Assembly: GCF_013387455.1 (NCBI RefSeq)
Contig: NZ_VWNC01000002.1
Coordinates: 297,001-361,000 of the forward strand
From: Mariprofundus sp. NF
GTDB lineage: Bacteria; Pseudomonadota; Zetaproteobacteria; Mariprofundales; Mariprofundaceae
Length of the DNA stretch: 64,000 bases
Reading direction: 5' to 3'
Shown: positions 16,660 to 23,309 of the stretch, piece after piece
How the letters are laid out: the number at the start of each line of letters is the position of its first letter
How positions within the stretch are numbered: the stretch's first letter is position 1
Made by a program: the position numbers and the translations under genes
Notes under the pieces: generated by a model
The model's database searches: none
What the model was told of the DNA's origin: nothing
Seen by the model: only the letters and a program-made list of their open reading frames with translations

Positions 16660-17817
16660 CTATTGATGCTCTTTCTGAATCTCCAGAATTTCATCCAGAC
16701 AGTTAAAAAACGCATCCACAACCTGTGGGTCAAAATGCTCCCCTTTTTCATTTTTTATAAGCGAAAGCGCATCCTGCAATGGCCAGGCGTTTTTATACGG
16801 CCTCTCATTTACCAGGGCATCGAATACATCGGCAACCGCAACGATTCTGGCCGCCAAGGGAATATCCTCTCCCTTCAAACCATCCGGGTAACCGTTCCCA
16901 TTCCACTTCTCATGGTGATGCAAAGCAATCTCTTCGCTCAGTTTGAGTATTTCAGTATCTGAACCTCTAAGTATGGAAGCGCCCTTGTTCGAGTGCGCTT
17001 TCATCTTCACCCACTCGTCATCATCCAGCTTGCCGTTTTTACCTAATATGGCATCAGGAACCCCCACTTTGCCAACATCATGCATGGCGGAAGCATGAAA
17101 TATACTCTCCTGCTCTTCTGTCGAAAAACCAAGCTCCCTGCTAAGGATTTTTGAACTATATCGGATTCTCTGGATGTGTTTAAACGTATCCTCATCCTTA
17201 TACTCTGCAGCATAGCCAAGACGTGCGAGCGTCTCTAAATATGCTTTTCTCAGGGACTCCTGTAGCCTCATATTGATGATACTGACAGCTGACATCACCG
17301 CAAAACTTTTCGCTATGCCCAGATTTAACTCGTGAACAAGCTCCTCTTTTGGATTGATGATTTCTAAAGCACCAATGATCCCTTCTGTCGGGTGTCGCAG
17401 AGGAATCGCTAAAATAGCCTCCGTTTTGAAGCCGCTCAACTTGTCTATGGAGCCATCAAATTTATATGGTACAGATTCAGACACATGATAAGGATCATCA
17501 ACCAGAAGCAGCTCACCGGTCATAGCTACGTGGCCAGCAATACTCCTGTGATTTAGAGGTATTCTCAGATCATCCCCATTTTGATCTCTTGATATGGAAC
17601 TGGTGTCGATTTCATCATTTTGAAACGACAGAAAGTCGAGGGAATCTCCGTCTACAAAAGCGATACTTCCAGCAGGGGCCTCAAAAATCCGCCGGGCATG
17701 TTTAAGGACCTTCTCTACAAATATGGTTTGATCCTTTTCCATCTCAATGTCTACTGCTGCATCAAAAATAAACATCAGCGTCTGTTTAGCTTCTTTACTT
17801 GAAATCTCTTCAAACAC
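16660..17817 (-). CDS. GAF domain HD-GYP phosphodiesterase
   Basis: Protein of 385 residues with an N-terminal GAF domain (about 10-180; IAGHVAMTGELLLVDDPY, EAILAIPLRHPTEGIIGALEIIN) and a C-terminal HD-GYP domain. The HD pair is in ASAMHDVGKVGVPD, then HHHEKWNGNGYPDGLKGEDIPLAARIVAVADVFDAL, so the metal ligands and the GYP triplet are intact. HD-GYP proteins break down c-di-GMP. There is no membrane segment, so it is cytosolic and the GAF part senses a soluble ligand. AGGAGG precedes the start. It stands alone, 200 bases from the divergent FecR-domain gene. Its base composition is lower in GC than its neighbours. Confidence 0.92.
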   Translation of the reverse strand: MFEEISSKEAKQTLMFIFDAAVDIEMEKDQTIFVEKVLKHARRIFEAPAGSIAFVDGDSLDFLSFQNDEIDTSSISRDQNGDDLRIPLNHRSIAGHVAMTGELLLVDDPYHVSESVPYKFDGSIDKLSGFKTEAILAIPLRHPTEGIIGALEIINPKEELVHELNLGIAKSFAVMSAVSIINMRLQESLRKAYLETLARLGYAAEYKDEDTFKHIQRIRYSSKILSRELGFSTEEQESIFHASAMHDVGKVGVPDAILGKNGKLDDDEWVKMKAHSNKGASILRGSDTEILKLSEEIALHHHEKWNGNGYPDGLKGEDIPLAARIVAVADVFDALVNERPYKNAWPLQDALSLIKNEKGEHFDPQVVDAFFNCLDEILEIQKEHQ

Positions 17818-18017: not shown

Positions 18018-19772
18018 TTGATCTCTTTTTGTAGGCATTCGATTCACAAATTCATCCTGCCTCTGGTCATGGTGGCTACTGTCTCTTGCTGCAGTGCTGT
18101 TCAGGCTGCCGATCAAATTACATTCGTAGATGATGAGCAACTCATCCAGAGAGCACCTGTAGGAGCATTTTCTGCAACCATCAACAAGGTAAATCACCTT
18201 AGAAAAGGAGCAGCCAGCCCCATTGATGCACAGATCGGCAGCGACGTTGAAATTAAGGATCTTGTGACAACGCTGGAGAGGTCTCGAGCTCAAGTAACTT
18301 TCGTAGATAAAACGGAACTTCGAATAGCCTCCTCTTCTCAGGTTGAAATTACAAAGTTCATGTTCGACAACAGCAAATTGAAAGATGGATCTTTAAAGAT
18401 ACTCCGGGGCACGCTTCGCTCCATCGTTCATCATGATATTTCCGAAACACCCCATTTCGAGGTTGTCACCCCCACTGCTGTTGCAGCAGCCCGTGGCACC
18501 GATTTTTTCACGATCGTCAAAGGTCTTTCAACCCGATTTGTCTGCCATGACGGCATGGTGGAGATCAGGAACATCAATGCAGGCGTGGCTGGGACAGAGA
18601 TGTGCGCAGCGGGACAGACTGTTGATGTCACTGAGGGAAACCCACCCACCACCCCGACAGCAACAGATCCCGAAGTTCTTGAACAACTGCTGGAGGCCAC
18701 AGAGATGACGCCAGCCGCCCCGATAGAGTCAGCGCCTGCGCAGGGCGCTGGAGCAGTGGAGGTCGCAGCTGCAGAGGTAACCACCATTAGCGCTACCACG
18801 ACAGCTCTGGGAGCCGCCGCCCTTGGCGCAGTGGCTATTGGTGCCGTCGCTTCCAGCAACACCCCTGCCGGAGCCATTCCTGCCCCTACTGGCACTGTTA
18901 CAGTGGAAGACTCTGTTTATGTCATGCAGCAGTGGAATGTTGCAGCCTCTCCTCTGGGTGCGGCAAGTGGCCCGGATGCCAATCATGTTGTGACTGTTAC
19001 TCGCGATGCTGGCGGCAACATCACCAGCGTTACCATCGCTGGCACCCATAACGTTCCCGGCGGCACCAACAACGGTCCCTTCAGCTACACCTTCAATACA
19101 CCGGTCGCGGCCAATGAGTTTGCTCTAGGTGGCGCCGCCACAGACACCCCTGCCGCTCTAGGTGCAGGCCCTAACTCTGTTATTCTCAATCAGATTGAGG
19201 GGCTACCGATCGTTGCATATCAGTATGTATCTCTATTCCACTGGGGGGTGCAGCTCAATCTGGATGACTGGCTCGCCGGAACCGGCGTCACAGGCACACT
19301 AACACCGCTAGCATCCATTCCAACCGCTGGCACCGGCACCTATACCGGTATAGCTCAGGGCTGGATCTATTCAACGGCCGCTCTGCTCGATCATGACTTC
19401 CGTTTCAACTCGACCTTGAATGTGACAGCCGATTTCGGCACAAATCAGATCACCAACTTTGCAACCACAGGCACCATCACCAACGCCAATCTTGGTGGTG
19501 GTACCTATGGTGCTAATGTGGCCAATCCTAACTATGACCTGAATATGGTGCCTGCAGCCCCGGGAACAATTACCGGCAACACCTTCACTGTTGGTGTTGT
19601 CAATGTTGGCAGTGGCTTTACCGGAACGGCAAATGGTGCTTTCTTCGGCCCTGCCACCAAAGCACCTGCGACAGGCGGAGCCAATGTTCCTGCCAATATA
19701 GGAGGCGCATTTACCGCATCACAAGCCACTGGCCCAGTTGGCCGAATGCATGGCGTGTTTGTTGGCCAGTAA
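18018..19772 (+). CDS. Secreted FecR-domain protein with TbpB-like C-terminal barrel, probable Slam cargo
   Basis: Protein of 584 residues. It has a signal peptide ending near VQA-AD (about residue 31), then a FecR domain (about 50-190) with ITFVDDEQL, TFVDKTELRIASSSQVEI and TPTAVAAARGTDFF. An Ala/Pro/Thr linker with a small Ala/Gly helix spans about 200-290. The C-terminal part is Gly/Thr-rich beta sequence; near its end it reads FTGTANGAFFGPA, GGAFTAS and GVFVGQ, the repeating pattern of TbpB-type barrels. Cys residues in the signal (SCCSA) give a poor lipobox, so lipidation is doubtful. Start is TTG 18018 with AGGAGGA 7 bases upstream. The next gene encodes a Slam-like protein. Confidence 0.72.
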   Translation: MISFCRHSIHKFILPLVMVATVSCCSAVQAADQITFVDDEQLIQRAPVGAFSATINKVNHLRKGAASPIDAQIGSDVEIKDLVTTLERSRAQVTFVDKTELRIASSSQVEITKFMFDNSKLKDGSLKILRGTLRSIVHHDISETPHFEVVTPTAVAAARGTDFFTIVKGLSTRFVCHDGMVEIRNINAGVAGTEMCAAGQTVDVTEGNPPTTPTATDPEVLEQLLEATEMTPAAPIESAPAQGAGAVEVAAAEVTTISATTTALGAAALGAVAIGAVASSNTPAGAIPAPTGTVTVEDSVYVMQQWNVAASPLGAASGPDANHVVTVTRDAGGNITSVTIAGTHNVPGGTNNGPFSYTFNTPVAANEFALGGAATDTPAALGAGPNSVILNQIEGLPIVAYQYVSLFHWGVQLNLDDWLAGTGVTGTLTPLASIPTAGTGTYTGIAQGWIYSTAALLDHDFRFNSTLNVTADFGTNQITNFATTGTITNANLGGGTYGANVANPNYDLNMVPAAPGTITGNTFTVGVVNVGSGFTGTANGAFFGPATKAPATGGANVPANIGGAFTASQATGPVGRMHGVFVGQ

Positions 19773-19812
19773 AGCGTAAGTGGAGCTGAGGGGCGAGCTT
19801 TCAAGGGCATCG

Positions 19813-21153
19813 ATGCTTTTTCGGCTAGTGGTGATCATTGGCTTCTCTCTCACCTCTTTCACCACTGTCGCCGAGACTTCCGGTGCAGACTCACTACCAG
19901 TAGTCACATCATCAGAAAACACTCAGGCAACTCCCGAAGAACTAGCACAGGTAGCGACACAACTGCTGATTGAGAGGAAACCGAACATGGCTGCCCTGAT
20001 CGTAGCAGAGCTACTAAAACAATCCGCGCCACCGATGCAGGCTCTGTTTGTCGCTGGCAAACTGGCTGAATTGCGCGGCGACTGGAATAGCGTGCTCCTT
20101 TTTTACCGGGCTATGCTTGAGCGAGACCCCTCTGTCTTACGGATACGCCTTGATCTGGCACGTGCACTGCTCATAAATGGCGACACCGAAGCTGCGCAGC
20201 ACCATTTTCAGCGGGTACTGGGTGAGCCCGGACTTCCGGAAAATGTGCGTGCCAACGTATTGTTGTTCCTCAATCAGATTGACAGACTGACCTTCAGTCA
20301 AACCCTCTCATTTGAGATTCTTGGTGACAGCAACATCAATCAGGCCACCGCCAGCGAGGTGGTGATCATCGGCGGCCGCCGCTTTATCCTTAGTCCAACT
20401 GCACGCAAGAGAAGCGGCAAAGGCCTCGGCCTTAACTGGCAGGGGCAGTATCGCTTTGGCGATGCACGCCAGTTCAGTGTGCGAGCCGTCCTCCAGCATC
20501 AGAACTACCCCTCGGCCAATCAGTACAACCTGACCTATCTGATGGCATTCGCTGGCTGGACAAAGCAGTGGAGCCCAGCCCATTCGCTCTCTTTCGAAGC
20601 CGGCGGACACGCCTCCTTTTATGGCGGCCACAACCTGTTTGACGGAGCGGCGTTCCGCATATCAGATATTTATCGAACAACATCAGGCTGGACATTCAAC
20701 CCGGCACTGGAGAGCAAACAGTTGCGCTATCCTGACTATCCGCTTCGTAACGGCTGGCAGCAGTGGTTCACAGTTGATATGACCAAAGCAATGCCCAGCG
20801 GTCTGGTCTGGAGCTCTGGCGCAAGCATCGGACGCAACAAGGCGCACGATGAGATTTATGACTTCATCTCATCAGGGGCCAAGCTGGGGTTATCTCTGGA
20901 GCTACCCTTACGGGTAACAGCATCAGTGATGCTGGATTATTTGGAAACCCGCTATGCGGGCATAGACCCGTTTTTCGCAGAGCGCCGAAGGGAGAGAAAG
21001 CAGTCAGTAGAGATCGGTCTGATCCCACTGGCACTGAACATGAAGGGGTTTGCACCACGCATTGTCTTCGGTCATATTAAGAACTGGTCCAATATCGACC
21101 TGTATCAGTTTCAGAGGACATATGGCAAGCTTGCTTTTGTACGCGATTTTTAA
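19813..21153 (+). CDS. TPR plus DUF560 outer-membrane protein (Slam/type XI secretion family)
   Basis: Protein of 446 residues: signal peptide (ending near VAET), an N-terminal TPR region (about 45-150; LFVAGKLAELRGDWNSVLLFYRAML), then a C-terminal barrel of about 280 residues. The barrel shows alternating strands ending in FVRDF, an aromatic C terminus usual for outer-membrane proteins. TPR plus a DUF560 barrel (FEILGDSNINQATAS at the junction) is the layout of Slam, which moves TbpB-like proteins across or onto the outer membrane. ATG 19813 is chosen because it has AAGG upstream and gives a proper signal; the GTG at 19780 does not. It begins 40 bases after the FecR-domain gene, its likely substrate. 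Confidence 0.78.
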   Translation: MLFRLVVIIGFSLTSFTTVAETSGADSLPVVTSSENTQATPEELAQVATQLLIERKPNMAALIVAELLKQSAPPMQALFVAGKLAELRGDWNSVLLFYRAMLERDPSVLRIRLDLARALLINGDTEAAQHHFQRVLGEPGLPENVRANVLLFLNQIDRLTFSQTLSFEILGDSNINQATASEVVIIGGRRFILSPTARKRSGKGLGLNWQGQYRFGDARQFSVRAVLQHQNYPSANQYNLTYLMAFAGWTKQWSPAHSLSFEAGGHASFYGGHNLFDGAAFRISDIYRTTSGWTFNPALESKQLRYPDYPLRNGWQQWFTVDMTKAMPSGLVWSSGASIGRNKAHDEIYDFISSGAKLGLSLELPLRVTASVMLDYLETRYAGIDPFFAERRRERKQSVEIGLIPLALNMKGFAPRIVFGHIKNWSNIDLYQFQRTYGKLAFVRDF

Positions 21154-21266
21154 TGCGTCAAGCAATAAGCGGATGAAGCTTGTCCGCTCCTGAGGTATAT
21201 CGGCATGACCAGAAACAAATGCGATGATAGCTTCTGATCTTCCCGCAATGAGCATGAGGCTACGGA

Positions 21267-23309
21267 ATGCGCGTCGTTAAACATAAAGGCCCCTATTTCC
21301 TACTGGCCTCACTTATAGTTGCCGCTGCCATCTTTGCAACTGTCACACCGCCGATGTTTGTCGACTACCTAGAATCCAAAACTTTCGACATCCGCACGCT
21401 GCTGCGCGGTGAGCGATCCGTCAGGCCGGATATTGTCATTGTCGCTATTGATGATAAGACACTGGAACAGTTCGCACTGAATATCTGGACACGGGAGTAT
21501 ATGGCTGCGCTGATCGACAAGCTCACCTCAATGCAACCAAAAGTGATCGGCATTGACTACCTCTACCAGCTTCCGGAGGTGAGCAAGGGGCTGGAGTCGT
21601 TACGCGAACTTAACAGGTCATACCAAAGCCTGGCATCGGTGGATAAAAACTTTCTTGGTGAACTTCAGGCTATGGAGCAGATCAATAATGTTGATGCCGC
21701 ACTCATTACTGCGGTCAACAAGGCAGGAAATGTTGTACTGGCCTTTGCCCCGCATGTGTTTGAAGCCATGGCATCGATTGATAATAAAGCGAATGTCCAG
21801 CTTCCGGGATATATGCTCTGGCATGCATTCATGCTGAGTAAACCCGGGCCTGCCTACAAGCCTGTGTTGGCACAGACCGCGCTAACGCCATTTGAGGGGC
21901 TGGCAGAGGTGGCTGCATCCATCGGCCATGTCTATTCGCTCTACGATCAGGACGGCGCTATTCGTTGGGAACCTCTTTACGTCAAAATGGGAGCTGACAT
22001 TTATCCTTCCTTTGGACTGGAAATAGCAAGGATGTTTAAAGATCTGAGGCCGCAGGATGTGAAGGTGATCACGGGTGACCGAATCATCATGGGGGATAAG
22101 ATTGATCTACCTACAGACATTTCCGGCCGCATTCTGATCAACTATCCAGGTAAACGCGGAAGATTCACCACCTATTCGGCCATCGATATCCTTGCAGGCA
22201 CTATTCCAGCCACTGAACTACAAGGTAAAATCGTGCTGGTCGGAGCCACGGCTCTTGGCACTGGTGATATCCATGTGACTCCCTTCACTGAACTCGCAGG
22301 TGTAGAGAAACAGGCCACTGTGGTTGAGAACATCCTTAGCCAAAACTACCTGGTGAAAGAGGAGTTAACCACACTGATAGATATAGTCGCCATTATTTGC
22401 TTTGCCTTCATTATGGCACTTGTTGTTCCCTACTTCGGTGCATTTGCAAGCGGCCTGTTTTTCGGTTTTCTGCTTATCGTCTACTTGGGATTAACCCAGT
22501 ACGCCTTTGTCGCCCATGATATCTGGGTACATGTCGTTGTACCTGCACTGACGCTAAGTATTCTCTATACGACATTAACGACATACCGCTTTTTTACTGA
22601 AGAGCGGTTAGCTAGGCAGATTCGCAATACCTTCTCCAAATATACGACCGAGAAGGTGGTCAAAGAATTAATAGATCACCCCGAGATGGCAAAACTGGGC
22701 GGCGCAAGAAAAAACATCACGGTTCTCTTTTCCGATGTGCGCAGCTTCACAACCTTCTCGGAGAACCATGAGCCGGAAGAGGTCGTTGAAGCCCTAAACG
22801 AGTTCCTCTCTGCGATGACCGAGGTGATCATGGCATGGGATGGAACTCTGGATAAGTTTGTTGGCGATGAGATAATGGCTTTCTGGGGGGCTCCGGTCGC
22901 GCAGGAAAATCACGCTGAACTGGCCGTGGGGTGTGCGCTGGCGATGATGAGGCGACTGCATGAGTTGCAAATAAAGTGGCGCGCGGAGGGGCGAGCTGTA
23001 CTCGGCATCGGAATCGGCATCAATACAGGGGATGTGGTTGTCGGCAACATCGGATCTGAAAAAATGAAAATGGACTACACCGTAATTGGTGATGCGGTAA
23101 ACTTGGGGGCACGCGTTGAAGCTCTGACACGCAACTATGATACCGACATAATCATCACTGAATTTACACTCAACCAGATCCGGGAACTGTTATCCAAAAG
23201 TGAAAAACCTGTAATTTTCTCTCATTTACAAGTAACAAAACTGGATGAGGTTAAAGTAAAGGGCAAAGAAAATGCTGTTGTGATCTATGCCCTCTCTGAA
23301 TCTGAATAG
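21267..23309 (+). CDS. CHASE2-domain class III adenylate cyclase
   Basis: Protein of 680 residues: N-terminal membrane helix, periplasmic CHASE2 sensor (about 35-365; DIVIVAIDDKTLEQF), three closely spaced membrane helices (about 370-440) and a cytosolic class III cyclase (about 480-675). Both metal aspartates (FSDVRSFTTF and DKFVGDEIMAFWG) are present. So are the adenine-selecting Lys and Asp (DKFVGD, MDYTVIGD) and the transition-state Asn/Arg (VNLGAR). It should therefore be active and make cAMP. It follows the Slam-like gene by 113 bases on the same strand. CHASE2 cyclases often neighbour FecR-domain proteins, which fits a shared signalling role. Confidence 0.9.
   Translation: MRVVKHKGPYFLLASLIVAAAIFATVTPPMFVDYLESKTFDIRTLLRGERSVRPDIVIVAIDDKTLEQFALNIWTREYMAALIDKLTSMQPKVIGIDYLYQLPEVSKGLESLRELNRSYQSLASVDKNFLGELQAMEQINNVDAALITAVNKAGNVVLAFAPHVFEAMASIDNKANVQLPGYMLWHAFMLSKPGPAYKPVLAQTALTPFEGLAEVAASIGHVYSLYDQDGAIRWEPLYVKMGADIYPSFGLEIARMFKDLRPQDVKVITGDRIIMGDKIDLPTDISGRILINYPGKRGRFTTYSAIDILAGTIPATELQGKIVLVGATALGTGDIHVTPFTELAGVEKQATVVENILSQNYLVKEELTTLIDIVAIICFAFIMALVVPYFGAFASGLFFGFLLIVYLGLTQYAFVAHDIWVHVVVPALTLSILYTTLTTYRFFTEERLARQIRNTFSKYTTEKVVKELIDHPEMAKLGGARKNITVLFSDVRSFTTFSENHEPEEVVEALNEFLSAMTEVIMAWDGTLDKFVGDEIMAFWGAPVAQENHAELAVGCALAMMRRLHELQIKWRAEGRAVLGIGIGINTGDVVVGNIGSEKMKMDYTVIGDAVNLGARVEALTRNYDTDIIITEFTLNQIRELLSKSEKPVIFSHLQVTKLDEVKVKGKENAVVIYALSESE

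Follow-up and report, generated by a model that had tools for sequence, protein, structure and literature searches.

Sensor domains of the CHASE2 type are widespread, but what they detect is for the most part unknown; the cargoes of the type XI secretion system (T11SS) are known chiefly as adhesins and as binders of metals or heme. Here, a stretch of 64,000 nucleotides of Mariprofundus sp. NF (positions 297,001 to 361,000 of contig NZ_VWNC01000002.1; the window) was analyzed, in which three adjacent genes encode a FecR-domain protein, a Slam outer-membrane protein and a CHASE2 adenylate cyclase. We propose, with a probability of about 0.55, that they form a trans-envelope cyclic AMP (cAMP) signaling unit composed of a FecR-domain Slam client, its Slam and an inner-membrane CHASE2 adenylate cyclase.

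The closest described systems are of two kinds. In the T11SS, Slam (DUF560) proteins are found with TbpB, hemophilin and NilC/NilB cargo (PMC8406197, PMC12282271). The window resembles this system in its Slam barrel, its cargo barrel (recognized at profile level) and the adjacency of the two genes, but its cargo has a FecR domain as the N-terminus and a CHASE2 cyclase belongs to the conserved unit; the main text of these two surveys contains no mention of FecR or CHASE2. The second kind joins FecR to CHASE2. The NsrA-CyaK/CyaD1/CyaD2-Clr system of S. meliloti (PMC7529298, PMC5498481) combines an outer-membrane protein with CHASE2 adenylate cyclases, FecR in NsrA being inferred. FecR, TPR and barrel apparently form one protein of 1219 aa there, whereas they are split over two proteins in the window, which has a Slam in the outer membrane and a cargo barrel on the FecR protein. 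FecR lies beside a CHASE2 histidine kinase in a Burkholderia biofilm operon (PMC5192318), and a Campylobacterota cluster contains a CHASE2 cyclase, FecR, a TPR protein and a phosphodiesterase (PMC9239204). As in the window, a FecR protein adjoins a CHASE2 signaling enzyme in both, but no Slam is described, and in Burkholderia the FecR protein has LysM and the enzyme is a kinase. By analogy, FecA-FecR-FecI also places a periplasmic FecR domain between an outer-membrane protein and an inner-membrane output, although the output in the window is a cyclase; no extracytoplasmic function sigma factor or TonB-dependent receptor adjoins the unit among the neighbors read from translations. The unit is a variant that joins the two kinds, T11SS cargo and FecR-CHASE2 signaling, and no description of FecR-barrel cargo, Slam and CHASE2 cyclase in combination was found in the literature searched.

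Organization and Conservation of the Three-Gene Unit

The genes follow one another on the + strand, with the Slam gene between the other two and intergenic gaps of 8-41 and 113 bp. The original prediction had placed three adjacent same-strand genes here, and the open reading frames (ORFs) and Pfam domains bore this out:

18018-19772, + strand: FecR-domain protein with a T11SS-cargo C-terminus, 584 aa (ORF, Pfam, orthologues)
18261-18563, + strand: FecR domain PF04773, residues 82-182 (48.1 bits)
18900-19274, + strand: putative handle/pedestal domain, residues ~295-419 (cargo profile aligns from 312; boundary approximate)
19275-19769, + strand: TbpB-type cargo barrel by profile homology, residues ~420-584 (hhalign 95.5%, E = 1.4e-8 to 1.6e-8)
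19780-21153, + strand: Slam/T11SS outer-membrane protein (PF04575, 66.6 bits, cut-off 22; in the tree with cargo-type Slams)
19909-20208, + strand: periplasmic TPR region, residues 44-143 (PF24575, TPR_Slam, 31.1 bits, cut-off 35.2)
20305-21144, + strand: SlipAM outer-membrane barrel, residues 176-455 (PF04575)
21267-23309, + strand: CHASE2-domain class III adenylate cyclase, 680 aa (Pfam; tree)
21321-22409, + strand: CHASE2 periplasmic sensor domain PF05226, residues 19-381 (184.4 bits)
22710-23294, + strand: class III cyclase catalytic domain PF00211 (Guanylate_cyc), residues 482-676 (91.1 bits)

The combination of FecR cargo, Slam and CHASE2 cyclase is conserved and real. The trio recurs in the same order and strand in four Mariprofundus-type genomes, where it is flanked in at least two distinct ways, and the window carries the sole FecR gene and the sole SlipAM gene detected in the 2.53-Mb Mariprofundus genome. 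The FecR-barrel form was found in 4 of 74 genomes of the window's family, a fifth giving a marginal match (E = 8e-4). When genome contigs were searched, two loci were returned: one in Mariprofundus sp. KV, the nearest named relative (95%), and one in a metagenome-assembled genome of Deltaproteobacteria, with the match confined to the FecR part. A plasmid search with the FecR protein as the query gave no match, and no terminators or promoters clearly exceeding chance were observed within the unit.

The C-Terminal Barrel of the FecR Protein

The FecR protein starts with TTG, preceded by AGGAGG, and has a signal peptide by inspection, while a lipobox is not clear. Its orthologues share 95% (L062) and 57-59% (L063 and L064) with it, and the gene lies beside Slam in all four. 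By profile homology, the protein carries a C-terminal cargo barrel of the T11SS TbpB/hemophilin type, probably preceded by a handle domain. The membership of this half in the TbpB-type barrel family, which had been proposed from its G-rich strand pattern, was recovered by profile-profile comparison: with hhalign, the barrel region matched two cargo profiles built without the window sequences (E ~1e-8), and the match spanned the last ~165 residues. Members of these two profiles exceed the PF01298 cut-off, and the control profiles of barrel-less FecR tails and of Slam gave no match to the C-terminus in the same comparison.

Outside the genus, the C-terminal half matched most closely, in direct comparison, a Slam-adjacent protein of genome G377 (E = 2.6e-7), which scores 29.7 bits with PF01298 (TbpB_B_D) against a cut-off of 26. 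A profile built from the four Mariprofundus-type sequences and used without iteration found this cargo at 1.3e-10 and two other Slam-adjacent cargoes at ~1e-4, the best match to the reversed-sequence control being 0.08. Out of sample, the window-seeded cargo profile matched genes in 10 of the 20 Slam loci absent from its construction, nearly all of them immediate neighbors of Slam. The G-rich end (GAFFGPA ... GGAF ... GVFVGQ) is not a chance pattern, because it is largely conserved across the four orthologues and the profile matches Slam-adjacent cargo barrels. A PDB sequence search with the FecR protein returned nothing meaningful.

The Slam Protein and the CHASE2 Cyclase

The true start of the Slam gene is likely ATG 19813, as judged by comparison with orthologues. 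The TPR plus DUF560 layout of the original prediction stood for the DUF560/SlipAM barrel, which lies well above its cut-off, but the Slam TPR model remained below its own, and other TPR models on the N-terminus likewise scored weakly. The PDB sequence search with Slam returned little besides TPR proteins, most of which were designed. In the trees, the window Slam grouped with Slams located beside ordinary barrel cargo, with moderate support for the exact sister group (86/64). Its grouping with the TPR-barrel proteins of other Zetaproteobacteria (form A, described below) or with other FecR-linked proteins was rejected by the approximately unbiased test (p = 0.0002 and 0.0004).

The third gene encodes a CHASE2 cyclase with a full catalytic set, as had been claimed: both domains score high, and by inspection the class III residues are complete (two metal-binding Asp, the purine-pocket Lys and Thr, Asn and Arg). 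Its product likely makes cAMP. The further suggestion that this cAMP reaches a Crp-type regulator encoded in the window was not supported. A genuine Crp-type regulator appears to be encoded at 242-943 (PF00027, 82.3 bits), but a specific link is unsupported because it is one of 17 cyclic-nucleotide-binding domain matches in the whole genome, alongside 8 class III cyclase matches; a direct link between the unit and this gene was rejected as unspecific.

FecR and Barrel Cargo Around Slam Genes

The survey covered 72 Slam-family places above the PF04575 cut-off, drawn from a sample of Pseudomonadota. A FecR gene was located within 1.5 kb in 19 of them, with CHASE2 nearby in 10 of these 19, and barrel cargo was nearby in 32. 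Barrel without FecR was observed at 27 places, FecR without barrel at 14, both on one protein at 5 and neither at 26. The five single-protein cases are those of the four Mariprofundus-type genomes and a protein of 1152 aa in locus L072; further FecR-barrel proteins beside Slam were recognized in other families by profile comparison (L097 and L088). Within the same loci, FecR density at up to 1.5 kb from Slam was several-fold above that farther out (24 near versus 11 far, the far stretch being much longer).

FecR beside CHASE2 is widespread, and many lineages have the pair without Slam. The original prediction had named homologous cargo genes without Slam as evidence against itself; such genes were found for the FecR domain only, and not for the FecR-barrel protein. 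Its central idea, one protein bridging the FecR/CHASE2 and the Slam/cargo neighborhoods, was observed in the window and is kept in the four genomes. On visual inspection, the tails of the f9 FecR proteins (L066, L073, L136) resemble barrels, but they failed the profile comparison and were not counted. At L072/L169 (G219), two Slam-family genes adjoin three FecR ORFs, and it is one of these FecR proteins, the one of 1152 aa, that ends in a TbpB-type barrel.

Origin of the Unit

Among the other Zetaproteobacteria, some of them of the same genus, a second arrangement was observed, here termed form A (L071, L076, L077, L122-L126): the gene of an outer-membrane protein of the TPR-barrel type stands in a row with that of a FecR protein and, at several of the loci, with that of a CHASE2 cyclase; its type of outer-membrane partner is that of most related Zetaproteobacteria. 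The iterated Slam profile also gathers such proteins, but they lie below the cut-off (of eight form A partners that were scanned, not one reached that of PF04575) and are called TPR-barrel proteins rather than Slam. The form A FecR protein usually has a Pro/Thr-rich tail and no barrel, and these tails matched none of the cargo profiles.

The FecR and CHASE2 trees agree: both window proteins nest inside Zetaproteobacterial cassettes, sister to L122, and the two genes, encoded together as in FecR-CHASE2 pairs, are co-directional. On this tree evidence, the window FecR and CHASE2 descend from a form A cassette, while the window Slam is of different origin. Since none of the cargo profiles matches the tails of form A FecR proteins, the partner and the FecR tail appear to have changed together; most simply, a true Slam took the place of the earlier outer-membrane partner, and a Slam cargo domain that of the FecR tail. 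This apparent coupled swap is a natural domain-swap experiment and points to a direct dependence between the partner and the FecR tail. The comparison with relatives suggests that, in the iron-oxidizing host Mariprofundus, a widespread envelope-signaling unit gave up its partner in the outer membrane in favor of a secretion system, while its FecR protein gained the matching secretion tag.

Two side observations were made on these cassettes. In several form A FecR proteins, the Pro/Thr-rich linker is followed at the very end by a short hydrophobic strand (such as VNVVILF or VTIQVIF) that resembles an outer-membrane beta-signal:

L077 7880-9019, L122 9150-10367, L123 854-1933: form A FecR proteins with the hydrophobic end strand
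L124 8528-9481, L125 3629-4549, L126 5834-6862: form A FecR proteins with the hydrophobic end strand

In some loci, a fourth gene between FecR and the CHASE2 cyclase encodes a large exported protein of 717-1352 aa, which is cadherin/Ig-like in L073:

L122 6984-9137, L066 6340-8946, L136 9416-13474, L073 9765-12368: large exported protein gene

An Apparent Fused Counterpart in Rhizobia

In rhizobia, FecR, TPRs and an outer-membrane-barrel-like C-terminal region form a single protein of 1219-1256 aa in which FecR precedes the other two, encoded by a gene that overlaps one for a CHASE2 adenylate cyclase:

L170 4959-10567 (NC_003078.1 ~1567228-1572836): S. meliloti 1021 pSymB, FecR-TPR-barrel gene and overlapping CHASE2 cyclase gene

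According to PMC7529298 and PMC13001267, NsrA is an outer-membrane receptor with a barrel at residues 600-1200 and acts with the CHASE2 cyclases CyaK and CyaD1/D2; CyaK is SMb20776 (PMC5498481). The S. meliloti pair is probably NsrA/CyaK, which fits with its containing the only CHASE2 gene on pSymB. If this identity holds, a route from the outer membrane through FecR and CHASE2 to cAMP has experimental precedent at both ends. The apparent fused counterpart supports such signaling and brings the idea into a genetically tractable system. The position of FecR, N-terminal to the TPRs and the barrel, suggests by analogy that FecR works on the periplasmic side.

Proposed Mechanism and Alternatives

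The FecR protein would enter the periplasm via Sec, and its handle-barrel end would be recognized by the TPR region and barrel of Slam. The FecR domain would contact CHASE2 while docked at Slam or before export, and docking or export would set the cAMP output. The unit would be a remodeled version of the broader cassette that combines a TPR-barrel protein of the outer membrane with FecR and a CHASE2 enzyme; Sinorhizobium has the apparent fused form of this cassette. The sequences show which domains are present, that the trio is conserved, that the FecR protein is homologous to cargo barrels and that Slam differs in origin from FecR and CHASE2, whereas the FecR-CHASE2 contact, the export, the direction of signaling and the cAMP output are inferred. 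The unit yields a concrete hypothesis for the input of CHASE2, namely a FecR protein handled at the outer membrane. That Slam is itself the sensor of the cAMP pathway, with the cyclase switched by the amount of FecR client that stays behind in the periplasm or is retained at Slam, is considered unlikely. A surface-displayed FecR protein, as originally suggested, is possible but less favored because FecR needs proximity to CHASE2 to signal.

Several points weigh against the proposed unit. A direct Pfam scan of the C-terminal half of the FecR protein gave no barrel match, and the AlphaFold model of residues 291-584, with an alignment of two sequences, was uninformative (pLDDT, the predicted local distance difference test, of 31). 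A fully exported FecR protein would be distant from CHASE2. The coupled swap is based on four genomes that form a single clade, NsrA is presumed to be the FecR-TPR-barrel protein, and the separate S. meliloti FecR gene smc02177 is dispensable for known plant-signal perception (PMC5498481).

The alternative that survives best is a split NsrA, in which the FecR protein stays bound to Slam, the Slam barrel senses an outside ligand and the periplasmic FecR switches CHASE2. The apparent fused counterpart, a single chain that unites FecR, TPR and an outer-membrane barrel and is encoded next to the cyclase, fits this arrangement, as does NsrA as a receptor upstream of CHASE2 cyclases (PMC7529298). 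The split-NsrA reading is nevertheless less probable than the proposed mechanism, given that known Slam clients traverse the outer membrane (PMC12282271, PMC8406197) and that the FecR protein has no evident membrane anchor or lipobox. The FecR protein could also be an ordinary secreted T11SS cargo with a FecR domain that binds an external target, and with the cyclase as a co-regulated neighbor that does not sense it. The cargo barrel and Slam adjacency would be expected of such a protein, and the FecR-barrel proteins of L072, L097 and L088 lie beside Slam without CHASE2, but FecR adjoins CHASE2 in many Slam-free lineages and the trees of the two agree, which makes this explanation quite improbable. 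A further alternative takes the C-terminal half for a glycine-rich beta domain of another kind, resembling cargo through composition or profile drift. This would fit the absence of direct Pfam and PDB matches and the pLDDT of 31, but is highly improbable in view of the four-sequence profile matches (1e-10 to one cargo and 1e-4 to two more, against 0.08 for the reversed control) and the independent hhalign result.

Neighboring Genes in the Window

The neighbors of the signaling unit, as read from translations, include an acylphosphatase, a ferrochelatase, a GAF-HD-GYP protein, a peptidyl-prolyl isomerase, a CstA-like protein and DnaE. The divergent neighbor at 16660-17817 (- strand) is the GAF-HD-GYP protein by inspection of its translation, of the type of cyclic-di-GMP phosphodiesterases.

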